Source of the DNA: Candidatus Nitrosopumilus sp. | GTDB taxonomy: Archaea; Thermoproteota; Nitrososphaeria; Nitrososphaerales; Nitrosopumilaceae | Direction of reading: 5' to 3' | Assembly (NCBI GenBank): GCA_029263475.1 | Contig: JAJCXK010000083.1 | Coordinates: 1-64,000, forward strand | Length of the DNA: 64,000 bases | Shown here: piece after piece, positions 7,732 to 47,969 of the stretch | Position numbering within the stretch: the stretch's first letter is position 1 | How the letters are laid out: each line of letters begins with the position of its first letter | The notes under the pieces: generated by a model | Database searches by the model: none | Told to the model about the DNA's origin: nothing | Seen by the model: the letters and a program-made list of their open reading frames with translations, nothing else | Made by a program: the position numbers and the translations under genes

Positions 7732-8160
7732 ATGAACAAGAAAATCATGGTTTGTTTAGATGGATCTAAGAACTCTCTTAGAGGTTTACAAACTGCAATA
7801 ATGATTGCAAAACAATCTGATGCCGTAATCATCGGCGTTCATAGTGATACAAGCTTTAGTGCATTTTCTGCAGTTCGTGCACCATTACTCCCAGAGGAAA
7901 AATGGGCAAATGATGTGAGGCGATTGATGAGTGTTGCAGAGAGAAAAGTAGAGAAAGATGAAATCAAATTTGAAGGTGTTGTAATCGGGGGGCATTCTTC
8001 AGGCACTGACTTGACCACATTTGCCAACAATCCCGCAAACAAGATTGATCAAATTGTCCTTGGATCAAGGGGGATGGGGTTTCCAAAGGAATTGTTCTTT
8101 GGAAGCACGTCAAACTTTGTGTTGAATAAGGCAAAGGCTCCAGTAACGGTAGTGAAATAA
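7732..8160 (+). CDS. Universal stress protein (UspA family)
   Basis: A 142-residue single-domain Usp. The nucleotide-binding signature G-x2-G-x9-G-S is present near the C-terminus (GSRGMGFPKELFFGSTSN), with the N-terminal MVCLDGSKNSLRG strand-loop. Usp proteins of this type bind ATP and act as stress modulators. It is the first of six Usp genes in an island up to 16.4 kb. It faces the K+ channel gene end-to-end with a 31-nt gap. Confidence 0.93.
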   Translation: MNKKIMVCLDGSKNSLRGLQTAIMIAKQSDAVIIGVHSDTSFSAFSAVRAPLLPEEKWANDVRRLMSVAERKVEKDEIKFEGVVIGGHSSGTDLTTFANNPANKIDQIVLGSRGMGFPKELFFGSTSNFVLNKAKAPVTVVK

Positions 8161-8191
8161 CTGTAGAGATATGATTACAGAATGAATTAGT

Positions 8192-8650
8192 CTACCTGCT
8201 TTTTTTACGATTATTTCTTGCCTCATCATGCAAATCTTTGACCATGGAGATTAGCACTTCTACTTCATGTTTTTCAAGACTCTCGATGTCTTCTATTTTT
8301 TTAATTATCATGTGCTTGGTGGATGATTCCACTGTTTCATATTTTTTCAATCTGGAGCCTATCAGCATTGCTCCCAACGTAGAGATGAAAGTGCCTATAA
8401 TGGAAATACCTACAAACATTAACGCAATACCCATTAATCTCCCAAGCTCAGTCACAGGAACTACATCCCCGTATCCTACGGTAGTAACAGTTGCAGAAAC
8501 CCACCAAAATGCATCAATTAGACTTGTAATTTGTGCACCTTCATGAGGGGATTCTATTAAATAAATTCCAATACTGCTACCCACAACCACTGATGCTGAG
8601 ATTATTAGCAGGTAGATTAGAATCTTCAACGGAAATAATTCTATAATCAC
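8192..8650 (-). CDS. Two-TM potassium channel
   Basis: A 152-residue protein: TM1 (about 8-30), pore helix and selectivity filter TVGYGD (about residue 57-62), TM2 (about 70-98), and a charged helical C-terminus of about 50 residues (IKKIEDIESLEKHEVEV). This is the KcsA/MthK pore layout without an RCK domain, so regulation would be by the coiled C-terminus or by a separate RCK subunit. The location among Usp, CBS and Kef genes fits ion homeostasis under stress. Confidence 0.92.
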   Translation of the reverse strand: MIIELFPLKILIYLLIISASVVVGSSIGIYLIESPHEGAQITSLIDAFWWVSATVTTVGYGDVVPVTELGRLMGIALMFVGISIIGTFISTLGAMLIGSRLKKYETVESSTKHMIIKKIEDIESLEKHEVEVLISMVKDLHDEARNNRKKSR

Positions 8651-8711
8651 CTACTAAAAACCAAAATAAGATTTCCAAATCCGAGAACGCGCGTCCTTCT
8701 TTTATCAAATA

Positions 8712-10052
8712 ATGCAGAACCCCAATCACATGATAATAAAATCATTCAAGTATCCAATTCCTCAAATCACGTATCTAGTTAAGAAAAAACTTTGGGCTCA
8801 AGTGCTTTTTGCATTATTTTTAGGATTGATCGTGGGTATAGTTCTGGGACCTGAAGTGGGAATTGTCGAAAAAGATACGGCAGAAGTAATTACAGACTGG
8901 CTATCGATTCCAGCTAATCTGTTTCTAAAGATCATTCAAATGATCATCATACCGCTAATTTTTGCATCTATCATACGTGGCATTACATCATCAGGAAGTT
9001 TAGAACAGCTTCAAAGACTGGGATTGGGAGTGTCGGTGTATTTTATCATAACAACAATCATTGCATTAACAATCGGGATTCTTCTCGTAACCGCCATTGC
9101 ACCTGGACACTTTATCGACAGTTCACTGATCAGAGAAAGTTTTGGAATCGGAAACATGGAGACAATTGAAAAAACAGAATTCAACTTGCAGGATATTCCG
9201 CAGAGTGTTGTGGGTCTGATACCAAGCAACCCGATAGCATCTTTCATGTCTGGAGAGATGCTGAGCATAATCATTTTTGCATTAATTGTCGGAGTCTCCC
9301 TGATTTCATTGCCTAAGCAGAGTTCTCAACTGATACTGGACTTGCTGGAATCCATACAAAAACTTACCCTGAAGGTTGTGTCATGGGCTATGCGTCTGGC
9401 ACCCTTTGCAGCATTTGGATTGATAGCCGGAATCACCTCAAAGATTGGTCTTTCTGCACTTGCAGTACTTGGTGCATACATGCTGACTGTGGTAATTGGT
9501 CTTTTTGCAATAATTTTTGTCTACATCATAATCATTAAATTTTTCACAAAGAGACCTCTGTCATCCACATTCGCAATGATGAAGGATGCGCAACTGCTTG
9601 CATTTTCAACTTCCAGCTCTGCTGCCGTAATGCCACTATCCATTAAAACAGCAGAAGAGAAAATGAATGTAAAGCCAAAGGTTTCGCAATTCATCATTCC
9701 GCTGGGAGCTACAATTAACATGGATGGAACAGCGATATACCAAATCATAGCGGTATTTTTCCTTGCCCAACTTTTCAGTATTGATTTGGGCTTCACCACA
9801 ATTCTTCTAATTACGATAACTGCCCTTGCCGCATCCATTGGAGCTCCTTCAGCTCCTGGAACTGGAATTGTGATACTTTCGACAATACTCATTGCAGCAG
9901 GCATTCCTCCCATGGCAGTCATACTTTTACTCGGCGTTGACCGTGTGTTGGACATGACAAGAACTACAGTCAATGTTACCGGAGATCTTACGGCCTGTTT
10001 GTTCTTTGATAATAAAATTAAGGTAGATGATCCTCTCAAAAAGAAACTATGA
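8712..10052 (+). CDS. Dicarboxylate/amino acid:cation symporter (DAACS family)
   Basis: A 446-residue protein with 8 or more TM segments and the re-entrant hairpin motifs of the GltP/DctA family: FSTSSSAAVMPLS (HP1, Ser-rich), GATINMDGTAIYQ (TM7, NMDGT motif), GAPSAPGTG (HP2) and RVLDMTRTTVNVTGD (TM8). It imports dicarboxylates such as glutamate, aspartate or C4 acids with Na+ or H+. Presence in an ammonia oxidiser suggests uptake of organic acids or osmolytes. The PII gene follows on the opposite strand. Confidence 0.93.
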   Translation: MQNPNHMIIKSFKYPIPQITYLVKKKLWAQVLFALFLGLIVGIVLGPEVGIVEKDTAEVITDWLSIPANLFLKIIQMIIIPLIFASIIRGITSSGSLEQLQRLGLGVSVYFIITTIIALTIGILLVTAIAPGHFIDSSLIRESFGIGNMETIEKTEFNLQDIPQSVVGLIPSNPIASFMSGEMLSIIIFALIVGVSLISLPKQSSQLILDLLESIQKLTLKVVSWAMRLAPFAAFGLIAGITSKIGLSALAVLGAYMLTVVIGLFAIIFVYIIIIKFFTKRPLSSTFAMMKDAQLLAFSTSSSAAVMPLSIKTAEEKMNVKPKVSQFIIPLGATINMDGTAIYQIIAVFFLAQLFSIDLGFTTILLITITALAASIGAPSAPGTGIVILSTILIAAGIPPMAVILLLGVDRVLDMTRTTVNVTGDLTACLFFDNKIKVDDPLKKKL

Positions 10053-10160
10053 ACTAATCATTTCTTGTAATCAATGAGGAAGATTATCTACAATACATGC
10101 AGGTCTTATCATCAAAATCCGACATTCCAAATAATGTACTATTCAAAATATATTTTATGA

Positions 10161-10475
10161 TTAGATTGAAGATGTTCCACGTTTTTTTGTACACAGATCA
10201 AGTGCATCTTCTATCGGGGTAATGAAGACTTTGCCATCTCCTTTGGTTCCAGTACAAGCAACACTTGCTATTGAATCTAAAACGTCTTCCACTTTTGGTC
10301 CATCTACGGCGCAAATGATCATTTCTCGATTAAAATATTGACCAACCAGTGGTGGATCTTCAGCTCCTTGACCCTTGACAGAATAGACGGTTATTCCTCC
10401 CACGCCGTTCTTCTTAATCGCAGATACAACGGCATTTCTTAATTCAGTCCTTACTATGGCTTCAATTTTTTTCAT
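10161..10475 (-). CDS. glnK: Nitrogen regulatory protein P-II
   Basis: A 104-residue PII trimer subunit starting MKKIEAIVRTELRNAV; an ATG five codons upstream is an alternative. The B-loop (TGTKGDGKVFITPIEDA) is intact, so ATP/2-oxoglutarate binding is likely. The T-loop (GQGAEDPPLVGQYFNREM) is about six residues shorter than in E. coli GlnB and lacks the tyrosine that is uridylylated in enteric bacteria. No amtB or glnA is adjacent. It probably senses energy and 2-oxoglutarate by ligand binding alone. Confidence 0.92.
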   Translation of the reverse strand: MKKIEAIVRTELRNAVVSAIKKNGVGGITVYSVKGQGAEDPPLVGQYFNREMIICAVDGPKVEDVLDSIASVACTGTKGDGKVFITPIEDALDLCTKKRGTSSI

Positions 10476-10769
10476 GCCATGTAGTGGCATGGAGTTTTTT
10501 TAAACCATTAGTATAATTCTCATTTTTGATTTTCATTGTTATCTGATTCTTTTTAAAAATCACTGTCTTTTTTGTAATTTACCTGTAAATCACCATATGT
10601 CACATAATTCTCTCATTTCCAGATTCTATGTGCCTAGAAATATTCATATTTTTACCTGTGTTGGCGAGTTTAATCATCAATTACATGTTTACGAATTGAA
10701 AATTATAAAAAGCGATTCAATGTGATTCTCTCATCATTGTATACCTCAATTAAAAAATTGGCGATGGGA

Positions 10770-11192
10770 TTACTTCACTATCAGTATTGGGATCTTTGTC
10801 TTGTGCATGACATAGTTTGATGTACTTCCTAGGAATGCTTCTTTTACCCCTCCTTGGCCCCTGGCACCGATTACAATCATGTCAAACTCACCTTTTTGAG
10901 AATGCTTGACAATTTCAGAACCTGTATGTCCACCACCAGTTTCATATTTGAATACGACATCTGATTTTTCTGCACGATTCAATGCTGGACCGATAGCTTT
11001 TACTGCCTTTTTCTCTGCCTCATCATCCATTTTTTTCGTATATTTTATTCCTGCAGCTAATGGCAAATGAAATACATACAATCCTGTAATTTCGGCATTA
11101 CTGCCTTTTGCAATTTCAATTGCTTGATCTAGTCCTCTAACGGAATTTGATGATCCATCAAGTGGAACAAGAATTTTTTTCAATTTTGACAT
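10770..11192 (-). CDS. Universal stress protein (UspA family)
   Basis: 140 residues starting MSKLKKILVPLDGSSNSVRG; the frame extends 16 codons upstream, but those residues are hydrophobic and not Usp-like. The ATP-binding G-x2-G-x9-GS signature is present (GARGQGGVKEAFLGSTSN). Second Usp of the island, transcribed away from the VIT1/CCC1 transporter gene. Confidence 0.92.
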   Translation of the reverse strand: MSKLKKILVPLDGSSNSVRGLDQAIEIAKGSNAEITGLYVFHLPLAAGIKYTKKMDDEAEKKAVKAIGPALNRAEKSDVVFKYETGGGHTGSEIVKHSQKGEFDMIVIGARGQGGVKEAFLGSTSNYVMHKTKIPILIVK

Positions 11193-11277
11193 AATTTGCA
11201 ACAATGAATATGCCATATAAGAAACGACTATGATTTTCAATATTGAAATTATTCGGATTAGTTAATGACATGTGTGA

Positions 11278-11982
11278 ATGATCAATAAATTAAAAATGAA
11301 ATGGTTTTTTGATGACTTTGTTTATGGTTCCATAGATGGAGCCGTAACAACATTTGCAATTGTTGCAGGTGTCATGGGTGCAGGATTGTCCCCGGGGATA
11401 ATTCTGATTTTAGGATTTGCCAACTTGTTTGCAGATGGTTTCTCAATGGCTGCCGCAAACTTTCAAGCATCAAGAGCTAGAAATGAGTACATCGAAATGA
11501 AAAGAAAACAGAAAGAATGGAAAATGGATCATCAGAAAGACCAAGAAAAAGATGAGGTTAGAGACATTTACCGTAAGAAAGGATTCAAAGATGAATTATT
11601 GGAAGAGGTTGTCAGAACAATCACATCTAGACGAAAAGTATGGGCTGATACCATGATGAAAGAAGAACTGGGATTAATAAGTGGGGGGAAACGCCCCATC
11701 TACAGCTCAATTAGCACGTTTGTCGGATTTAATTTAATTGAATTAATCCCATTGATTCCGTTCATGCTGTTCGTCCTAATTGGAAATACTACCAATCATG
11801 ACGGAGCTTTTACGTATTCCATAATGTTGGTGGCATCGGCCTTTTTCACCGTTGGATTCATCAAGGGGAAAATAGTCAAAAAGTCAAAAACACTGTCAGG
11901 TTTATTTACGTTGATGATAGGTGGAATTGCAGCAATGGTTGCATATTTGATAGGCTATGGATTAAATTTCCTCATAAACTAA
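11278..11982 (+). CDS. VIT1/CCC1-family iron/manganese transporter
   Basis: A 234-residue membrane protein with the family's N-terminal DFVYGSIDGAVTTFAIVAG segment (TM1 with conserved Asp), GFANLFADGFSMAAANF (TM2), a cytoplasmic helical metal-binding domain (about 75-145, rich in Glu/Lys: KDEVRDIYRKKGF..LLEEVV), and three further TM helices. VIT1/CCC1 proteins export Fe2+ or Mn2+ from the cytosol in exchange for H+. Its place in the stress island suggests metal detoxification. Confidence 0.9.
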   Translation: MINKLKMKWFFDDFVYGSIDGAVTTFAIVAGVMGAGLSPGIILILGFANLFADGFSMAAANFQASRARNEYIEMKRKQKEWKMDHQKDQEKDEVRDIYRKKGFKDELLEEVVRTITSRRKVWADTMMKEELGLISGGKRPIYSSISTFVGFNLIELIPLIPFMLFVLIGNTTNHDGAFTYSIMLVASAFFTVGFIKGKIVKKSKTLSGLFTLMIGGIAAMVAYLIGYGLNFLIN

Positions 11983-12137
11983 TTTACACGGATTTAATGC
12001 AATCTCAAATACTTTGTGTATGTGTTTTGAATAATCGTTGTGTATATTTGTAAAATACGCATATGTTAAATTTTAATGATTGATCTCTCGGATTGTTCAC
12101 CTACACATACTACTGACCAAATGTATTGTTACTAGGA

Positions 12138-12575
12138 TTATTTTACGATTAAGACTGGACATTTAGTTTTTTGAGACACCCCATTTGCAACGCTTCCCAA
12201 AAGTAGTTTGTCTACCCCCGTTCTTCCATGTGAGCCAATTACGACAAGATCATGCTTTCGTGATTTTGCAAAAGTCACAATATCATTAACAACTGATTCT
12301 GATGTTAAAATTTGAGACTTGAAAGAAATGTCGTTTTTCTCTGCAATTGATTCCAATTTTTCAAGGTGTTTTTGTGTAACCTTGCGTTGTTTTTTAATTA
12401 GTTCCTTGTCTGCCCTAGAATCATAGTATTTGTGATGCCATGCGTCACCTTCAAGGCAGGTTAGAAGGGTTATTTTTGATTGGTATTTTTTTGCAATATC
12501 TATTGCCACTTTGAAAGATCTTATGGAATGATTAAACAGATCAAAAGGAACAAGGATATTTCTAAACAATCTCAA
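12138..12575 (-). CDS. Universal stress protein (UspA family)
   Basis: 145 residues, MRLFRNILVPFDLFNHSIRS, ATP-binding signature GSHGRTGVDKLLLGSVANG. It overlaps the stop of the upstream HPF-like gene by 4 nt (ATGA), so the two are translationally coupled. This pairing of a Usp with a hibernation-factor-like protein suggests joint expression in stationary phase or stress. Confidence 0.93.
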   Translation of the reverse strand: MRLFRNILVPFDLFNHSIRSFKVAIDIAKKYQSKITLLTCLEGDAWHHKYYDSRADKELIKKQRKVTQKHLEKLESIAEKNDISFKSQILTSESVVNDIVTFAKSRKHDLVVIGSHGRTGVDKLLLGSVANGVSQKTKCPVLIVK

Positions 12576-12913
12576 TACTCCTCTTTTTTACGAATACTTT
12601 CTCTTTGGCGCTTATCGTCATGTTTAGGCAATTCCCCTTCCAATTTTCTACACAATTCATCTGCAATTTTGAGAATATCCCAGCCTGATTCAGTGTAGAC
12701 CAGTTGCTTTTTTGGGGTTATCACAGCAGATGTGACATCGTAATGTGTTCTTGTTCCATCCGGGTTTTGGGATTTCACGTCTATCTTTGCCTCTATGATC
12801 TCTGGGAATACTTGCTGGACTTTTTCCAACGCATTATCAAACTTTGATACAAGCAATCCGTTAACGGGTTCATCTTGCGGTAAGCCAGTCACATACAGGG
12901 GAATTTTTATCAA
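12572..12913 (-). CDS. HPF/RaiA-like putative ribosome hibernation protein
   Basis: A 113-residue protein whose second half resembles bacterial HPF/YfiA: a beta strand region (THYDVTSAVITPKKQLVYTE) followed by the helix DILKIADELCRKLEGELPKHDDK, which mirrors the D-hydrophobic-AID-hydrophobic-DKLERQL-KHK pattern of the HPF signature. The first half has the expected strand-helix (MIKIPLYVTG, LVSKFDNALEKVQQVFPE). HPF proteins block the 30S decoding channel. The assignment is by pattern only, but the coupling to UspA and the divergent four-CBS gene fit a dormancy role. Confidence 0.55.
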   Translation of the reverse strand: MIKIPLYVTGLPQDEPVNGLLVSKFDNALEKVQQVFPEIIEAKIDVKSQNPDGTRTHYDVTSAVITPKKQLVYTESGWDILKIADELCRKLEGELPKHDDKRQRESIRKKEEY

Positions 12914-13027
12914 CCATGTCTATTTCGTGTAAAATCAAATTAAAAACCAATACAACAATTATCAAACATGATTTTCAACAATGAAACTGTTGAAGATGTA
13001 TTTAACAAATAATGAAATAGAACTGTG

Positions 13028-13882
13028 ATGAATGTCAAAAATTTAAAATTATCGGAGGTAATTTCTAATCCCGTTACTGTTGGTCCAAATACGACGCTGA
13101 TCAAAGCAAGGGAAATTCTATTAAAAAATAAAATAAAACGAGTAATAGTTGTAGATAAAAGAAAACCTGTTGGCGTAATTACCGAAAAAGACATTGCAAA
13201 AAAAATTTATGAACTGGGTACGCAGTCAATAAAGTCAGTCAGGGCAGTGGATTTCAAACCGAGAACCATCTTTACGTTAACTCGAGATAATTCCGTTCAA
13301 GAATGTGCAAAACTAATGAAAAGGCATAGGATCAATTCGGTTATCATCCTAAATGATGATAAGACGTTAGATGGAATTGTAACAAAAACAAGTTTGATGT
13401 CTTCTTACCTTACTAAAGAAGTAACATCAGTCAAAGTTTCAAAAATAATGAAAAGAAAATTGATTACCGTAACTCCGAGTGATCCTATTCTGTATGTGGA
13501 GAGTCTGCTTCTAAAATATGGCATATCCGGGATTATTGTCAAGCAAAATCAGGTCCCTGTTGGAATGATCACTTTTCGAGACTTTGTGCCTGCCAAAATA
13601 CCCCAATGGATTGCAGAATCCGCAGATCCAAAGGATGTTCAGGAATACAAATTCAAAAAAGGACTAAAAGAAAACCATTCAAATGAACTGAGCTATCTGT
13701 TCCCATTTCATGCTACTGACATAATGTCTACAAAATTGGTTACGATTGAAATGGATAAAGATGTCAAAATTGCCATAACTCGTATGATCAAGCATAACAT
13801 CAGTGGACTTCCAGTGGTAAAAAACTCAAAACTGGTTGGCATCATTACAAAATCAGATATTGTAAATGAGCTGTGCGAATAA
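13028..13882 (+). CDS. Four-CBS-domain protein
   Basis: 284 residues made of four CBS motifs in two Bateman modules: VSK-type repeats beginning LSEVISNPVTVGP, AVDFKPRTIFTLTRDN, VSKIMKRKLITVTPSDPI and ATDIMSTKLVTIEMD. Each ends in a G-hydrophobic-I-T/F-x-D segment (GVITEKDI, GIVTKTSL, GMITFRDF, GIITKSDI). CBS modules bind adenine nucleotides and sense energy charge. No enzymatic domain is attached. The first codon is taken as ATG at 13028 (GTG one codon upstream is possible). It lies divergent to the HPF-like gene. Confidence 0.9.
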   Translation: MNVKNLKLSEVISNPVTVGPNTTLIKAREILLKNKIKRVIVVDKRKPVGVITEKDIAKKIYELGTQSIKSVRAVDFKPRTIFTLTRDNSVQECAKLMKRHRINSVIILNDDKTLDGIVTKTSLMSSYLTKEVTSVKVSKIMKRKLITVTPSDPILYVESLLLKYGISGIIVKQNQVPVGMITFRDFVPAKIPQWIAESADPKDVQEYKFKKGLKENHSNELSYLFPFHATDIMSTKLVTIEMDKDVKIAITRMIKHNISGLPVVKNSKLVGIITKSDIVNELCE

Positions 13883-13884
13883 CC

Positions 13885-14316
13885 CTATTTCACAATTAGC
13901 AACGAGCAAGAGGATGATTGCGCAAGTTTGCTCGAAACGCTTCCCAGTAAAAGTTTGGTAACTGAACCTAGCCCTTTACTTCCAACGATTACCAAATCAC
14001 ATTTTTCTGCCTTGACAGTTTTTTCAATCTCCGTTATAATGTTTCCTTCCTTCAGGATTATTTTTGCGTTTATTCCCTCTTTCAAAACATCATCATTTGC
14101 TTTTTTCAACGTATTGGTTCCAAACTTACGAAGCAGTTCAAGGTATTCCTTACGATCCAGGATGCTCAACGTGGGGGATTTTTCTACCACGTAAAGTAAA
14201 ATGATCTTGGCATCTAATGCTTTCACCATTTTACATGCGCGCTGCAATGCCTTTTCAGAAAATTTGGATCCGTCAAGTGGTACAAGTATTTTACTAAAAT
14301 TGTATCTGTCAGTCAT
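13885..14316 (-). CDS. Universal stress protein (UspA family)
   Basis: 143 residues, MTDRYNFSKILVPLDGSKFSE, ATP-binding signature GSKGLGSVTKLLLGSVSSK. Its start overlaps the stop of the next Usp gene upstream (14313-14744) by 4 nt, forming a two-gene operon of divergent Usp paralogues. It ends 2 nt from the convergent four-CBS gene. Confidence 0.93.
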   Translation of the reverse strand: MTDRYNFSKILVPLDGSKFSEKALQRACKMVKALDAKIILLYVVEKSPTLSILDRKEYLELLRKFGTNTLKKANDDVLKEGINAKIILKEGNIITEIEKTVKAEKCDLVIVGSKGLGSVTKLLLGSVSSKLAQSSSCSLLIVK

Positions 14317-14744
14317 TTCACAATCAACGTTGGTTTCTTGGATTTATGCAATACGTGATTTGAAACGCTTCCCAAGAACATCTCTTTAGCGGAGCCTCTT
14401 CCGCGTGCACCAATTACGATTAGGTCGATTCCATTCTTTGCATTGTTTGCAAATCTCGCTATGTCGTATCCTGGATCTCCCGCAAGTGCTTTTCCAGTTA
14501 GTTGGATGCCTTTCTTTGCAGCTCTGACTTTTGCGTTCTCAAGTAATTTCTTCACTTCTGTCATGGAATTGAAATCCAAAAATCCCAACGGATGAAGAGC
14601 GTATGCTCCAGGCACGGATTTTACAGATAATGCGGTTATTGTTCCGTGGGATTGTCGGGCAATATGGATAGCCATATCCAGCCCTCTGATTGAATTCTTT
14701 GAGCCATCCAGTGGTACCAGTATTTTTTTAGTTTTGACTGCCAT
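14313..14744 (-). CDS. Universal stress protein (UspA family)
   Basis: 143 residues, MAVKTKKILVPLDGSKNSIRG, signature GARGRGSAKEMFLGSVSNH. Closest in motif to the Usps at 16017 and 55481, which share G-x-R-G-x-G/R-x-AK. First gene of a two-Usp operon (4-nt ATGA overlap with the next). Confidence 0.93.
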   Translation of the reverse strand: MAVKTKKILVPLDGSKNSIRGLDMAIHIARQSHGTITALSVKSVPGAYALHPLGFLDFNSMTEVKKLLENAKVRAAKKGIQLTGKALAGDPGYDIARFANNAKNGIDLIVIGARGRGSAKEMFLGSVSNHVLHKSKKPTLIVK

Positions 14745-14855
14745 GTTTTAAAATATGTATATTAACAGTTTAAAGGCTGTTGTGATTTCCCCAAATGATT
14801 TTCAAATGTGAAAATGTATGATTCATCTAATATAATTGAAAATAGAATACATCTC

Positions 14856-15290
14856 ATGAATAGTACATTTGTAAATGAAGTAATGAACAAGCATGTGGCG
14901 ATGGTTGGGAAATCATCATCATTACAACAAGTAGCAGAAAGCATGAAAAAATCAAACATAGGCTGTGTAGTTATTACAGATAAAACAAAACCCATAGGAA
15001 TAATTACCGAAAGAGACTTTGTGAATGTCGCTGCAAAAGGAATTCCTCTGTTTACTGATGTACACGAAGCAATGTCATCCCCACTAATTACAATTGATTC
15101 TGAGGAAACGGTTTGGGAAGCATCTGAAATAATGAAGGAAAAAGGAATTCACAAGCTTCCAGTAATGCAAAATGAAAAGATTGCTGAAATTATTACAACT
15201 ACGGATATTGTAAGGATTTCCAGCATAGGATCTGATTCAGAAATGCGTAGGATTTGTGATCAAATTCTTTTAAGAATGAAAAATGAGTAA
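14856..15290 (+). CDS. CBS-pair (Bateman module) protein
   Basis: 144 residues starting MNSTFVNEVMNKHVAM; an in-frame ATG and GTG lie 14-16 codons upstream, but the extension is not CBS-like. Two CBS motifs: VNEVMNKHVAMVGKSS..IGIITERDFV and VHEAMSSPLITIDSEET..EIITTTDIV. It is a stand-alone adenine-nucleotide-sensing module with a short helical tail. Paralogous to the CBS protein at 15440-15901. Confidence 0.88.
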   Translation: MNSTFVNEVMNKHVAMVGKSSSLQQVAESMKKSNIGCVVITDKTKPIGIITERDFVNVAAKGIPLFTDVHEAMSSPLITIDSEETVWEASEIMKEKGIHKLPVMQNEKIAEIITTTDIVRISSIGSDSEMRRICDQILLRMKNE

Positions 15291-15321
15291 TAAGTTGTTT
15301 GTTAAATTATAATATGTTTAA

Positions 15322-15432
15322 TCAGTCCATTCTATCTCGCAACTGATGACAATCGCATAGACAGCCTTTTGAGCATTTCATTCTTTTACAATCCGAGCAG
15401 ACTCTGCTGTTCCAATATGGTGCCGTGTTCAT
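15322..15432 (-). CDS. Cys-rich zinc-binding microprotein, 36 residues
   Basis: Translation begins MNTAPYWNSRVCSDCKRMKC and continues with SKGCLCDCHQLRD. Six cysteines and one His in 20 residues (CxxC-x4-CxxxCxCxCH) are enough for one or two zinc sites. It is preceded by nothing on its strand for about 470 nt except intergenic DNA from the divergent side of the CBS gene, and lies 8 nt from the CBS gene's stop. Too short for standard gene calling. Its role is unknown, possibly nucleic-acid or protein binding. Confidence 0.55.
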   Translation of the reverse strand: MNTAPYWNSRVCSDCKRMKCSKGCLCDCHQLRDRMD

Positions 15433-15439
15433 ACCTATT

Positions 15440-15901
15440 CTAACCATATGGGCTGTAATCTGCAAAAATCTTTACTACTGAATGAAAATATATGTCTCTT
15501 ACGTCATCTTCTACACATGTTGCCAACAAATTAACAATATCTCTGGCAGTGATTATTCCGACGACATCTTCTCCGTCAATAACTGGCAATTTCATTATTT
15601 CACGTTCATGCATTAGATCTGCTGCCGTTCTAACAGACTCGTCTGAATTTATTAAAAATAACGGCGTGGACATGATTTGCTTTACTGGGGATGTGATTTG
15701 ATAAGCGTGAGCTGCAACCTTTATCGCAAAGTCTTTGTCAGTAACGATCCCTACTGGCAAGTTATCTTCCATAACTATAACTGTGCCAACTCTTGCATCC
15801 TCCATCATCTTTGCAGATTCATTTATCATCATTGAAGAATCTACCGAAACTATAGATTTGGTCATAACATCTCCAACGGTCAAGCTTTTTGCATTTTTCA
15901 T
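15440..15901 (-). CDS. CBS-pair (Bateman module) protein
   Basis: 153 residues with two CBS motifs (VGDVMTKSIVSVDSSM..PVGIVTDKDFAIKV and VKQIMSTPLFLINSDE..VVGIITARDIVNLL) and a C-terminal tail (DDVRDIYFHSVVKIFADYSPYG). A nucleotide-sensing regulator without a fused effector. Located between another CBS gene and a Usp gene. Confidence 0.9.
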   Translation of the reverse strand: MKNAKSLTVGDVMTKSIVSVDSSMMINESAKMMEDARVGTVIVMEDNLPVGIVTDKDFAIKVAAHAYQITSPVKQIMSTPLFLINSDESVRTAADLMHEREIMKLPVIDGEDVVGIITARDIVNLLATCVEDDVRDIYFHSVVKIFADYSPYG

Positions 15902-16016
15902 ATTATGTCTATTCTATGTCTGATTGGATATTTTACCTTCATCTAGAATGTCAAAGATGAAAATCAAGTAAGAAAATCTTAACTGTGTTTAAATTAAAAA
16001 TCACTTATCTCTGTCT

Positions 16017-16442
16017 GTGGTAATAAAAATAAAAGAAATTCTTGTTCCGTTAGATGGATCTCCTAACTCTTTTCGAGGGTTGGATGTTGCAATCCAAATG
16101 GCAAGAGAATCCCATTCCACCATTACGGGACTTTACGTGTTGGGGATGATCAAACCTCAAATCAATGAGCAAATTGATCCTTTGGAGAAAATGCTTTTGG
16201 AACGTGCGCAAAGCATTATGAAAAAGGCCAAATTAATATCCGCACAGAAAGGAATTTTATTTTTTGACAGAACATCGTATGGCGATTACGGAAAAAGAAT
16301 TGTGGAAATAGCCAGAAAAAAAGATTTTGATCTTATAGTAATTGGTTCAAGGGGGATGGGGGCTGCAAAAGAAATATTCCTAGGAAGCACATCAAATTAT
16401 GTGCTTCATAAATCAAAGAAACCAGTATTAATTGTAAAGTGA
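16017..16442 (+). CDS. Universal stress protein (UspA family)
   Basis: 141 residues with GTG start (VVIKIKEILVPLDGSPNSFRG), signature GSRGMGAAKEIFLGSTSNY. Sixth Usp of the island, 67 nt before the Kef-type antiporter on the same strand. Usp and cation/proton antiporters are often linked functionally, since Usp domains regulate some K+ transporters; here they are separate proteins. Confidence 0.92.
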   Translation: MVIKIKEILVPLDGSPNSFRGLDVAIQMARESHSTITGLYVLGMIKPQINEQIDPLEKMLLERAQSIMKKAKLISAQKGILFFDRTSYGDYGKRIVEIARKKDFDLIVIGSRGMGAAKEIFLGSTSNYVLHKSKKPVLIVK

Positions 16443-16509
16443 TCTTTTGGAATCTGGAGAACAAGAACCATCATCGTTAATTTTATCTGGTCAAAGTTTT
16501 TTCTAAGAT

Positions 16510-17736
16510 ATGTTTGGAGAAATAGATGTCATTCCAACTCTTGTTGGAATTTTATTCATTGTAATTCCTTCAATGTTACTTGGAAAACTCTGTTCTCGTT
16601 TTGGACTTTCAGAAATCATAGGCTTTGTAATTGGCGGAGTGCTGCTGGGTCCATTTGCTCTTGGAGGATTAATTCCATTTTTTGACAAGCCCATCATGGT
16701 GCTGGATGATCTCACTTTGGGATTGTGGCAAATGTCGGGAATTGTAATATTATTTTCAGCAGGACTTCATTTCACATTCAATGATCTTAAAAGTGCAGGA
16801 TATGGGGCAGGAATAATAGGCGTATTGGGAGTAATCACTCCGCTAATTTTGGGCTACTTGTTTTCTGCATTGTTTGGATTTGATTGGACCATTTCAGTGT
16901 TAATTGGTGCTACATTGAGTGCAACAAGTATTGCAATTTCGGTAACCTTGCTGGAAGAATTGGATAAAGAAAAAACACGAGAGGGAAATATTCTGGTAAA
17001 TGCTGCGGTTTTAGATGATGTATTGGGACTTGCAATCCTATCCGCAATAGTTTCAATCATTACGGTGGGCTCACTGCCTAGCATAGAATCAATATTGATT
17101 ACGACTGGCGAATCAGTTATTTTCTGGTTGTTACTGTTGCTTGGTGCGGTCTTTATCTTGCCAAGAATCGTTCACGGCATTGCTCTTGCAAAACCTACAT
17201 CCCTTGAAATGAGAGGAACCAAACAGGCTACAGCATTAGGATCTGCCTTTGGATTTGCGGCAATAGCCTCTGCTGTGGGACTCAATCCGATAGTCGGTGC
17301 ATTTGCTGCAGGAATGGGACTTGCAGGGTCTAAGCTTGGTGGACAAGTCAGAGAATTCATGGGAGAACTAAAAATTATCGTGGCGCCCCTATTCTTTGCG
17401 ATTATTGGAGCACATGTGGATCTTAGACAGATTTCGGAAGTAAGTATAATTTTTGTCTTAGGGCTATTGGGAGTTGCTGTATCAAGTAAAATGATTGGTT
17501 GTGGAATTCCTGCAATGGTTCTGCTAAAAAATAAAACAAAAGGATTGCGAATAGGCTATGGGATGATTGCCAGGGGAGAGGTTGCATTTATCATCGTGGG
17601 AATTGGAATCACTGGTGGAATTCTAACTGATATGGTTTACACCTCCCTTGTTTTAGTCATATTGACAACAATCATAATCGCGCCATTTCTTCTCAAGAAC
17701 TCATATGGTAATATGACCCAAAAAAAGAAACCGTGA
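16510..17736 (+). CDS. Kef-type cation/proton antiporter (CPA2 family)
   Basis: A 408-residue membrane protein with about 12 TM segments. Family motifs: GFVIGGVLLGPFALGG (N-terminal), GATLSATSIAISVTLLEEL and VNAAVLDDVLGLAILSAIV with the conserved Asp-Asp pair of CPA ion-binding sites, NPIVGAFAAGMGLAGS, and RIGYGMIARGEVAFIIVGIG. It exchanges K+ or Na+ for H+. It lacks the C-terminal RCK (TrkA-N) domain of KefB/C, so regulation would be by partner proteins, plausibly the neighbouring CBS or Usp proteins. Confidence 0.93.
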   Translation: MFGEIDVIPTLVGILFIVIPSMLLGKLCSRFGLSEIIGFVIGGVLLGPFALGGLIPFFDKPIMVLDDLTLGLWQMSGIVILFSAGLHFTFNDLKSAGYGAGIIGVLGVITPLILGYLFSALFGFDWTISVLIGATLSATSIAISVTLLEELDKEKTREGNILVNAAVLDDVLGLAILSAIVSIITVGSLPSIESILITTGESVIFWLLLLLGAVFILPRIVHGIALAKPTSLEMRGTKQATALGSAFGFAAIASAVGLNPIVGAFAAGMGLAGSKLGGQVREFMGELKIIVAPLFFAIIGAHVDLRQISEVSIIFVLGLLGVAVSSKMIGCGIPAMVLLKNKTKGLRIGYGMIARGEVAFIIVGIGITGGILTDMVYTSLVLVILTTIIIAPFLLKNSYGNMTQKKKP

Positions 17737-17823
17737 ACATGTGCCAATGCATGTCTCCAAACATTCTAGAAATTTGATTAAACAAATATCTGTAAATGTT
17801 GCAAGTCTATTTTATCCAGCTGA

Positions 17824-17852
17824 TTTCCATATCTGAAAACTGGCCGTGGAAA
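17824..17852 (+). promoter_or_regulatory. Shared 29-bp promoter element, copy 5
   Basis: TTTCCA-N17-TGGAAA with core TGAAAACT. It ends 41 nt before the ATG at 17894 of the winged-helix regulator. It lies 12 kb from the other copies, but the architecture is identical. Confidence 0.8.
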
Positions 17853-17893
17853 TTGTCTCTACTGATTATATCAAATTATGACATATGTTAGTC

Positions 17894-18223
17894 ATGCAAA
17901 CATTACAACAAACTTTTAGAATTGAAGAAACAGAAAAACAAGATAGCCTGCTTGAGATATTATCAGATAGGTATTGCAGGGCAATAATTGAGTCAATTAC
18001 GGACAAACCAAAGTCAGTAGTAGAGATCACTGATGAGACAGGGATTCCGATGAGTACCGTATATCGTAGAATTCAGACGCTTCATGACAGCAAATTACTT
18101 GCGACATCAGGCACAATTACCAACGATGGAAAGCGATTATTCCTTTACAAAAGCAAGGTAAAAGGAATTCAGAGCGTGTTTAATGATGGCAAAACAGAGG
18201 TCGAGTTAATTCTTAACAGATAA
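17894..18223 (+). CDS. Winged-helix transcriptional regulator, target of the 29-bp element
   Basis: 109 residues from ATG 17894 (MQTLQQTFRIEETEK); an ATG three codons earlier is possible. Winged helix: LLEILSDRYCRAIIESI, SVVEITDETGIPMSTVYRRI, and a wing with TNDGKRLFLYKSK. It is a paralogue of the regulator at 5225-5575, and its own promoter carries the 29-bp element. This makes it a good candidate for an autoregulated controller of that regulon (inference). Confidence 0.82.
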   Translation: MQTLQQTFRIEETEKQDSLLEILSDRYCRAIIESITDKPKSVVEITDETGIPMSTVYRRIQTLHDSKLLATSGTITNDGKRLFLYKSKVKGIQSVFNDGKTEVELILNR

Positions 18224-46053: not shown

Positions 46054-46758
46054 ATGCCGCGAAGTTCAATCACCCGGGGAGAGCGCAGAACATCAGAATT
46101 CTTGGTAGTCAAACGGTGCAGAAGATGTAACTTGATAATTCCATTCAATGCTTCTGTTAAGTTCTGGGATGTAAAAGATGTCGTGGGGAAAGTTATTTTG
46201 AGTCGTCATCACATGGGAATGATACGAAGGAAAATAGGAACATTAGAAAACGATGGCACATTGGACAATGAAAGATCTAAATCAAAAGTATCGGAAAGAT
46301 ACTGGGCTCATACAAGTGCTCCTGCGGATGTGAGTATAATTTCATTACCGGAAAGAAATACAATGACATTACCAACGAAAGCGTTCTTCACAAATTCATA
46401 TGGGATGAAAAGAAAGCAACCATTCCAATCTCACTAAAAAACAAAAAGCTCAACGTGTTTCAAATTGGCGATAAAATATTTGCAAAGAAGATCAGAGTTA
46501 CAGTTAAAAAATACGATGTTGCAAAAGAGAAAAAGTTGAAATCCAAAGTTGAATCAAAAAAACAATAAGATAGTTTTCAGGACTGCAGATATTGCAGACG
46601 TGCAATCCGAATCAAAGCACGACACATATTATATCGTAAATTTCATCGAGAGGACATGCACGTGCGAATGGGCAACGATGGAGTTTTCACGTAAGGAAAA
46701 GAAGGGTGTCGTATGCAGGCATCTAAGAGACGTGCTTGAATTACTAGGTCGATCATAA
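46054..46758 (+). pseudogene. Zinc-ribbon/SWIM-domain gene split by two compensating frameshifts
   Basis: Frame 1 from the ATG at 46054 reads MPRSSITRGERRTSEFLVVK, then RCRRCNLIIPFNASVKFWDV and up to KSKVSERYWA at about 46308. Frame 2 from 46311 continues YKCSCGCEYNFITGKKYNDI and ends KLKSKVESKKQ at 46568, where a run of seven A lies. Frame 1 then resumes (NNKIVFRTADIADVQ) and ends with a SWIM zinc motif, CTCEW...VVCRHLRDVL (46549-46758). The shifts are of opposite sense, so one intact protein of about 230 residues with an N-terminal zinc ribbon and C-terminal SWIM domain is implied. Confidence 0.65.
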
Positions 46759-46815
46759 ACGCATAGTTAAATCATGAACAGTAATCATAAATCATACTGA
46801 CGGTTCCATTTCATT

Positions 46816-47280
46816 ATGAATAAGAAACTGGTTGCCCCGATAATCTTGGGGGTGGCAGTAGCAGTAATGCTTGCAATACCAATATCTCCACCTGCGTCTG
46901 TTGACCAATTGCAATGCTCAGAAGACATAGGGGAATGCTTTGTGGCTGAGGTAACCCGAGTCATAGACGGGGATACTCTGGAAATCCTTCATGAGGAAAG
47001 AATAAGATTATCCCTTGCATCGGCACCGGAACTAAACGATTCAGGAGGACAGGAAGCCAGACAGTTCATCGAGGAAATATGTCCAGTAGGATCAATGGTA
47101 CTCATTGACGAGGATGACGAACAGTTGACAGGAAGTTTTGGAAGAATAATAGCACAGGTAACGTGTAATGGAGTCAACCTCAATGATAGACTGGTAGAGG
47201 GAGGACATGGTACCATAAACACAAGATTCTGTGGTACGAGTGAGTTTGCAGAGGAATCATGGGCCAGCGAATGTGATTAG
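46816..47280 (+). CDS. Secreted thermonuclease-like (SNase) protein
   Basis: 154 residues with signal peptide or TM anchor (about 7-25) and an SNase OB fold: VTRVIDGDTLEI, RIRLSLASAPELNDSGGQEA, SFGRIIAQVTCNGVNLNDRL, GHGTINTRFC. Key Arg and Glu of the family appear (IRLSLASAPE, QEAR, FGR), but the usual Asp before the PE dipeptide is Ser (ASAPE). This may weaken Ca2+ binding. Several Cys suggest disulfides outside the cell. Confidence 0.85.
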   Translation: MNKKLVAPIILGVAVAVMLAIPISPPASVDQLQCSEDIGECFVAEVTRVIDGDTLEILHEERIRLSLASAPELNDSGGQEARQFIEEICPVGSMVLIDEDDEQLTGSFGRIIAQVTCNGVNLNDRLVEGGHGTINTRFCGTSEFAEESWASECD

Positions 47281-47302: not shown

Positions 47303-47665
47303 TTAACGGGGAGGTAGTATGGATAATTGTCTTCCGTCTGGGGGAAGGCTTGGTATATTCAGTTCCACCACCGAATCTGACATTCGAGCACCGCTTTCAG
47401 CATCAAAACTCGTCAGGTTTCGTATAAGGGTCCGAAACGTGGGAACAGGTATGACAAGCGGAACTGCCAAGATATGCGATGATGGGTCTGCAATTGCTGC
47501 TGCAACCATTATCAGTATAGCAAACGATTCAAAGAATGCTTCAGTGGTACTTTCCAACTCAATCGGGGCGGCTTCTGATATTTCATTCAGCTTTAAACCA
47601 AATGATGCATGCAGTCTTTGAATTTTTCGTGGCAGAGTTTGAGTATGCTTGATTACTCTCTGCAT
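47303..47665 (-). CDS. Small membrane protein, last gene of a microprotein chain
   Basis: 120 residues, MQRVIKHTQTLPRKIQRLHA, TM hairpin (FFESFAILIMVAAAIADPSS, HILAVPLVIPVPTF), then a soluble tail. The start lies inside the end of the preceding zinc ribbon gene (13-nt overlap), which argues for this strand over an opposite-strand frame. Function unknown. Confidence 0.5.
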   Translation of the reverse strand: MQRVIKHTQTLPRKIQRLHASFGLKLNEISEAAPIELESTTEAFFESFAILIMVAAAIADPSSHILAVPLVIPVPTFRTLIRNLTSFDAESGARMSDSVVELNIPSLPPDGRQLSILPPR

Positions 47666-47748
47666 TTTTCACAGACGGTAAGGCCTGATTCGTCATTGAA
47701 GGTAATCTCTACTCCCAAACTGTGACATTCAGAACATAGGTATTTCAT
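47653..47748 (-). CDS. Zinc-ribbon microprotein, 31 residues
   Basis: Reads MKYLCSECHSLGVEITFNDE, then SGLTVCEKCRE. Two CxxC knuckles separated by 17 residues make a minimal zinc ribbon. Its start overlaps the stop of the 44-residue gene upstream by 4 nt, and its own end overlaps the next gene. The double overlap supports real translation. Confidence 0.6.
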   Translation of the reverse strand: MKYLCSECHSLGVEITFNDESGLTVCEKCRE

Positions 47749-47879
47749 GTGAAAAATTCCCTGCTATCCTTGCATATCAGAATTGATATCTCCTGACCTC
47801 TCAATGAATGTCCTTGTAGGTCACGTCTGCCATGTCCTGACGCAATGATGACATTCCTATCATAGGATGGTGGATTCAT
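47745..47879 (-). CDS. 44-residue microprotein, first of the chain
   Basis: Reads MNPPSYDRNVIIASGHGRRD, then LQGHSLRGQEISILICKDSR and a short tail. Basic, with two His; not recognised. It overlaps the zinc ribbon gene by ATGA and lies 69 nt downstream of a perfect palindrome (47948-47969). Confidence 0.5.
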   Translation of the reverse strand: MNPPSYDRNVIIASGHGRRDLQGHSLRGQEISILICKDSREFFT

Positions 47880-47947
47880 TCAGAGATAATTTGAAGATGT
47901 TTGTGCAATTTTGATTCGATCAGGGTCAACATTTGAAAATCTTTTTG

Positions 47948-47969
47948 TATTGACAATAACATGTCAATA
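47948..47969. promoter_or_regulatory. Palindrome between the microprotein chain and birA
   Basis: TATTGACA-ATAACA-TGTCAATA, perfect 8+8 arms with a 6-nt spacer. It lies 69 nt from the left operon start and 130 nt from the birA start, so it is a candidate operator for one or both. It does not resemble the 29-bp element. Confidence 0.55.

Follow-up and report, generated by a model that had tools for sequence, protein, structure and literature searches.

A zinc-ribbon microprotein locus of Nitrosopumilus as the probable decaying copy of a multi-copy two-gene unit

We consider it likely that the minus-strand locus described here, which lies in a window of 64,000 nucleotides (the whole stretch of DNA analysed) from a Candidatus Nitrosopumilus sp. 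contig, is a two-gene unit in decay, one copy from a multi-copy zinc-ribbon family of Nitrosopumilus and close relatives. On the best reading of the sequences, the family would consist of zinc-ribbon microprotein genes that are leaderless, regulated together, and rapidly gained and lost. Marine ammonia-oxidizing archaea are very abundant, and little is known of how they are regulated. The window copy is of minor importance; the interest rests with the family. Its promoter element marks 30-residue genes almost without exception, which offers a way to find genes near or below the size limit of gene callers, and it points towards an isolable regulator. Coupled homologous zinc-ribbon pairs with high turnover would also provide a test of the role of archaeal zinc-finger microproteins.

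A sequence-only reading of this DNA had proposed a chain of three overlapping microproteins, and the three minus-strand frames are indeed present: 44 codons (47745-47879), 31 codons (47653-47748; MKYLCSECHSLGVEITFNDESGLTVCEKCRE) and 120 codons (47303-47665), overlapping by 4 and 13 nt. A DNA search of the same genome (G000) returned further copies, C61 (84% over 282 nt) and C29 (76% over 292 nt), whose alignments span the promoter through the end of the 31-codon frame, hereafter ORF2, and stop near those limits. Both carry an intact zinc-ribbon ORF1 of 40-41 aa (MIGMCHHCSQDKADVTYKDITLRGKEISILICKDCREFFT in C61) that runs into ORF2 through an ATGA overlap, and a third intact pair of the C61/C29 type occurs in G067, another species. 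At the window locus, this start/stop overlap, which is kept in tandem loci, lies at 47745-47748 (minus strand). Besides the window locus, seven intact ORF1-ORF2 pairs (in G000, G016, G067 and G094) have an RTGA overlap. The first junction of the proposed chain is therefore kept in four genomes, but the trio is not: ORF1 is broken here, only the ORF1-ORF2 pair is found conserved elsewhere, and nothing conserved follows ORF2 at paralogous loci. What stands above chance at the locus is the 31-aa ORF with the 4-nt overlap, both of which recur in paralogues and in other species. By these comparisons, the only ancestral parts of the trio are the 31-residue ORF2 and the 4-nt start/stop overlap that precedes it. 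Profiles of the ORF1 and ORF2 families align with a probability of 97.7, and since the two are homologous, the pair arose by duplication.

The ancestral ATG of the window ORF1, at 47863, still lies exactly 66 nt after the TTGAC of the promoter, and the frame that it opens now ends after 20 codons (47801-47863, minus strand; MIGMSSLRQDMADVTYKDIH up to the stop). Aligned with three intact pairs, C61 and C29 of this genome and that of G067 from the other species, the window ORF1 shows three deletions, of 2 nt after 47854 and of a single nt after each of 47842 and 47807 (positions fall along the minus strand). Its first CxxC is destroyed, with both cysteines gone, and its last cysteine has become a serine (47763-47765). 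The 44-aa frame, which had been taken for a basic peptide, is a frameshift relic with a net charge of only +1. It starts at a non-conserved ATG, and the sole part that matches homologues is its last 20 residues, which are the end of ORF1. Judged by its alignment, this frame is a piece running from an accidental ATG to the old ORF1 stop and not a gene. Because the early ORF1 stop falls about 50 nt short of the ORF1/ORF2 overlap, ORF2 probably yields little protein or none. It is still open and keeps all four cysteines, and two residues that hardly vary across the family are changed in it, G3 to Y and S11 to L. We conclude that the window locus is probably a decaying copy of a two-gene zinc-ribbon unit.

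The 31-aa frame had been described as a minimal zinc ribbon, and on this point the description was right: CxxC-x17-CxxC is present, and the family to which it belongs is under purifying selection. A profile built from five copies detected the ORF2 family in 91 of 95 genomes of the genus of G000, whose named members are deposited as Nitrosopumilus. Copies per genome reach 16, the number in G000, an assembly with 8% estimated contamination; the multi-copy state recurs in G067, a single contig with 11. A broader profile placed the family in 148 of 275 genomes of the order, with all the matches listed coming from a single archaeal family. The window ORF2 matches the family models with E values of 6.6e-22 (for a model that includes the window ORF2 itself) and 2.5e-16 (for the broader model). 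As defined here, the family comprises homologous ribbons of 30-38 aa with M-x-G-L-C-x-x-C, to which the window copy conforms except at G3. One near-universal copy (MKGLCQKCHSSNVEVTVQ...; at L106, L128, L137, L143, L150 and others) differs from the expanded copies in its upstream region, where it has a strongly conserved block of its own, AATTATAAATTGCTAAGTATT...AAATTTAAA.

Across 48 distinct 31-codon copies, compared in 286 non-independent pairs, ORF2 has a dN/dS of 0.10 (pS 0.617, pN 0.119), and shifted-frame controls gave pN/pS of 1.18 and 1.86. For ORF1, C61 and G067 differ at 9.0 of 16.8 synonymous and 3.0 of 79.2 non-synonymous sites. As these counts indicate, the ORF1 and ORF2 families are both under purifying selection, and conservation extends beyond the cysteines (GLCSKCYSSGV...). 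No Pfam family reached its cut-off for any of the three window frames, NCBIfam had no family for the 31-aa frame, and neither a PDB-sequence profile search nor Foldseek on the 31-aa model returned anything significant. In Pfam, the 31-aa frame comes closest to the TFIIB ribbon PF08271, at 16.8 bits against a gathering cut-off of 29. An AlphaFold2 model of the 31-aa protein has a pLDDT of 70 and shows a beta hairpin; such a model says nothing of bound metal. We found no paper on the family in the open-access literature searched. The zinc-ribbon family looks undescribed and new to the model libraries searched; the novelty that had been claimed for a three-gene module appears to belong to this family and not to the module.

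The copies share a promoter of the form TTGAC-N3-GATCGAAY-N-AA...TTCAAAT, which starts 66 nt before the first start codon. In the window it reads TTGACCCTGATCGAATCAAAATT (47907-47929, minus strand), an exact match to TTGAC-N3-GATCGARY-N-AA-N2-TT placed 66 nt before the ORF1 remnant, and is followed by a TATA-like element, TTCAAATT (47888-47895, minus strand), at -32 to -25 from the ancestral ORF1 start. Allowing at most three mismatches, the upstream pattern has 15 sites in G000 and its reversed control none. The consensus of 48 sites is TTGACccaGATCGAAc-AAatTT-aAt ... tTcaAATt, and across these sites there is little conservation in the stretch that separates the TATA-like part from the bases immediately preceding the ATG. 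The TTGAC-to-ATG distance, measured in the 36 copies whose promoter matched a simple search, is 66 nt in 18 and 63-67 nt in 33. Other zinc-ribbon microproteins (e.g. MLGVCRVCRSFTEVRLSQISGDNDTKLAYICTKCSNSN) carry the element at 62-63 nt. We set aside the idea that the leader is a structured RNA, as the conserved bases are those of the promoter and few remain from there to the ATG, past the TATA-like site; an Rfam scan of 44.5-50.5 kb returned no RNA family.

An exact-pattern census that was blind to the protein found 38 sites in 250 genomes of the archaeal family, and control patterns gave scattered single matches only. Behind 37 of the 38 sites lies a zinc-ribbon gene: 27 are intact, nine are damaged (the window copy among them) and one is in second position. 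An intact zinc-ribbon ORF starts 55-100 nt downstream at 27 of the 38 sites, against 0.7% of random positions, which were drawn from the same loci and are themselves enriched in zinc-ribbon genes; the remaining 11 sites were classified by eye. The single exact site with neither an intact nor a damaged zinc-ribbon gene is that of G052. At the exact site of G067, a 105-aa ORF is followed by the zinc-ribbon ORF. The element precedes a 105-aa ORF (MVKFIVSIQPTVANGNSMIRDLKAVRNLEKEFKKF..., no Pfam family) at L141:3087-3404 (-) and at L146 (G067).

From this geometry we infer that transcription is leaderless, that translation of the paired genes is coupled and that the copies have a common regulator. 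A single regulator would bind the element and turn on the whole set, acting just upstream of the TBP/TFB site; the position of the element immediately upstream of the TATA-like box suggests a regulator site. The mRNA would be leaderless, with transcription from the ATG, and this would explain the near-fixed distance between the TATA-like element and the ATG. Ribosomes would read ORF1 from the 5' end and reach ORF2 through termination-reinitiation at the 4-nt overlap, a scheme that the conserved RTGA of the seven pairs fits, and the outcome would be two related zinc-ribbon proteins produced in step. By analogy, because of the known behaviour of zinc ribbons and of the haloarchaeal regulator Brz, the proteins most likely serve as small adaptors that act on nucleic acid or on the transcription machinery. 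We can propose only tentatively a full regulon, in which one regulator and one element would drive many zinc-ribbon proteins of 30-45 residues, including some translationally coupled pairs and some non-homologous Cys-rich genes, as a switchable pool of micro-adaptors for the transcription or translation machinery. Duplication together with the promoter may explain the sharing, and one present-day regulator for all copies is not required.

The sequence-only reading had seen instead a small sensing or defence module of three genes (basic peptide, zinc ribbon and membrane protein) under a palindromic operator, which is almost certainly wrong. The overlapping frames do form a chain, and the inverted repeat, TATTGACA-N6-TGTCAATA at 47948-47969, is perfect and lies 69 nt upstream. 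Yet the 44-aa frame is a frameshift relic, and the frames are unconserved as a trio. For the 120-aa frame, which falls outside the unit, a search of 94 other genomes of the genus returned no homologue, and the fetched loci, including those beside nuclease paralogues, contain no relative of it. In place of the transmembrane hairpin attributed to it, there is one hydrophobic region, which contains D and P and has a best 19-residue Kyte-Doolittle mean of 1.84. The operator was rejected as well: perfect 8-bp inverted repeats occur in the window at chance level (7 with N6 spacing, 60 with N0-20), and none of the other promoter sites examined has the TATTGACA arm within its 60 upstream nt, so that the palindrome recurs before no other copy. 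Other copies have varied ORFs as neighbours, among which we could recognise no defence or mobile genes by eye. An opposing 100-aa frame on the plus strand (47319-47621) lies 38 nt downstream of a nuclease gene, with a Shine-Dalgarno-like GGGGAGGT (47308-47315) before its ATG, and has no homologue in the genus; its weak match in G089 is spurious, being by eye a carbonic-anhydrase-like gene, and its CARDB-like look has no Pfam match behind it. Codon scores are 0.135 for the 120-aa frame and 0.143 for the plus-strand frame, against a minimum of 0.175 in confident window genes; the two scores are about equal and do not settle which strand codes, and inside real genes of the window long frames on the antisense strand often score positive as well.

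It also seems unlikely that the window copy is functional, with ORF2 translated alone and the loss of ORF1 an adaptive simplification to a one-ORF layout. ORF2 may still work, with its open frame and four cysteines; its promoter match is exact, and the one-ORF layout is common, being found in most copies. However, ORF2 starts 181 nt from TTGAC behind a broken ORF1, whereas single-ORF copies start at about 66 nt, and the two changed positions are nearly invariant. As to the family, we think it improbable that its members are metallothionein-like zinc buffers or stores, induced by metal stress and with a capacity set by copy number. Four cysteines per 31 residues and many copies under one promoter type would suit such a store, but one zinc per 31 residues is poor storage, and the conserved sequence outside the cysteines would be needless. 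Free-standing mimics of the TFB zinc ribbon, which would occupy its RNA polymerase site and tune initiation, are suggested by an hhalign probability of 85 between the family and the two TFB ribbons of the window, and by the rank of the TFIIB ribbon as top Pfam match of the window ORF. That Pfam score is far under the gathering cut-off, though, and another member matched other families about equally; the cysteine pairs are separated by x17 and not by the x15 of TFB, no PDB profile match is significant, and generic zinc-ribbon similarity can explain the hhalign match, a comparison that covered the TFB ribbons. We regard such mimicry as quite improbable. A selfish or mobile mini-cassette, consisting of a promoter and one or two ORFs and not a host regulon, would account for dispersed copies beside unrelated genes, for high turnover (9 of 38 sites damaged) and for the joint duplication of some copies with a Cys-rich gene that converges on them. 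Nevertheless, the proteins are under strong purifying selection, terminal repeats are not seen in paralogue alignments, and no virus contig carries the unit, a result on which we also rejected a virus origin; the cassette is a highly improbable reading.

Read as a co-regulated set of zinc-ribbon microprotein genes, the family resembles the CPxCG-related proteins, such as Brz (PMC2253796): those archaeal proteins too are very short, have two Cys pairs, are numerous in each genome and mostly lack annotation, and a role in transcription is proposed for them. In Halobacterium salinarum, deletion of Brz lowers bop mRNA (PMC2253796). As that class was defined (Tarasov 2008), its members have fewer than 100 residues (30-46 aa in the present family) and two Cys/His pairs 7-40 residues apart (here CxxC-x17-CxxC), and at least one pair reads CPxCG, CPxCx or CxxCG. 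The window pairs, CSEC-H and CEKC-R, have none of these forms, and a CPxCG-like pattern occurs in only 2 of 64 members of the present family, which differs further in consisting of paralogues with a common promoter, often with an overlapping partner, confined to one archaeal family. The one-domain micro-proteins of Haloferax volcanii (PMC6562870, PMC11241148, PMC10716476) are, by description, similar in having a single zinc-ribbon-like domain of fewer than 70 residues and multiple genes, but the published accounts present them as C(P)XCG proteins whose sequences vary. Deletion of Haloferax zinc-finger micro-proteins has phenotypes (PMC6562870). Some proteins of this type bind no zinc (PMC11241148), and the experimental papers caution that a motif of this kind may carry no metal or a different one (PMC6562870, PMC11241148, PMC10716476); hence, metal binding in the present family is a prediction. 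The TFIIB/TFB ribbon shares CxxC...CxxC, with a turn rich in D/E ahead of the second Cys pair, whereas the present family has two more residues between the pairs, stands alone without cyclin-like domains and, by its score, falls outside PF08271.

A second Cys-rich family (MPCKGACSRHKVTKPP..RYGVGQKRCTACDIFTDWKGIRCPCCAGVLRTKP) of about 60-70 aa, with 40 matches in G000 and no Pfam or NCBIfam match, is convergent to at least 10 zinc-ribbon copies; its loci include L016:3790-4008 (-), L064, L062, L030, L123, L115, L134, L021 and L148. In three G000 copies the gap between the Cys-rich and zinc-ribbon matches is an identical 44 nt, as if one cassette had been duplicated. Members of the second family at L018:1499-1566, L110 and L132 have a similar element, TTCACC-N-TGATCGAG...TTCAAAT, at about the same distance from the start, which hints at a promoter class wider than the zinc-ribbon family. 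Next to the window unit, and outside it, is the staphylococcal-nuclease-like (SNase) gene (46816-47280, plus strand), a type with many further paralogues in related genomes; a SWIM-like small ORF and this gene (46549-47280, plus strand) are duplicated together at L007, with 88% and 62% identity. Elsewhere in the window, positions 7732-18223 hold a dense run of genes that, by eye from their translations, are universal-stress-protein-like and CBS-domain-like.
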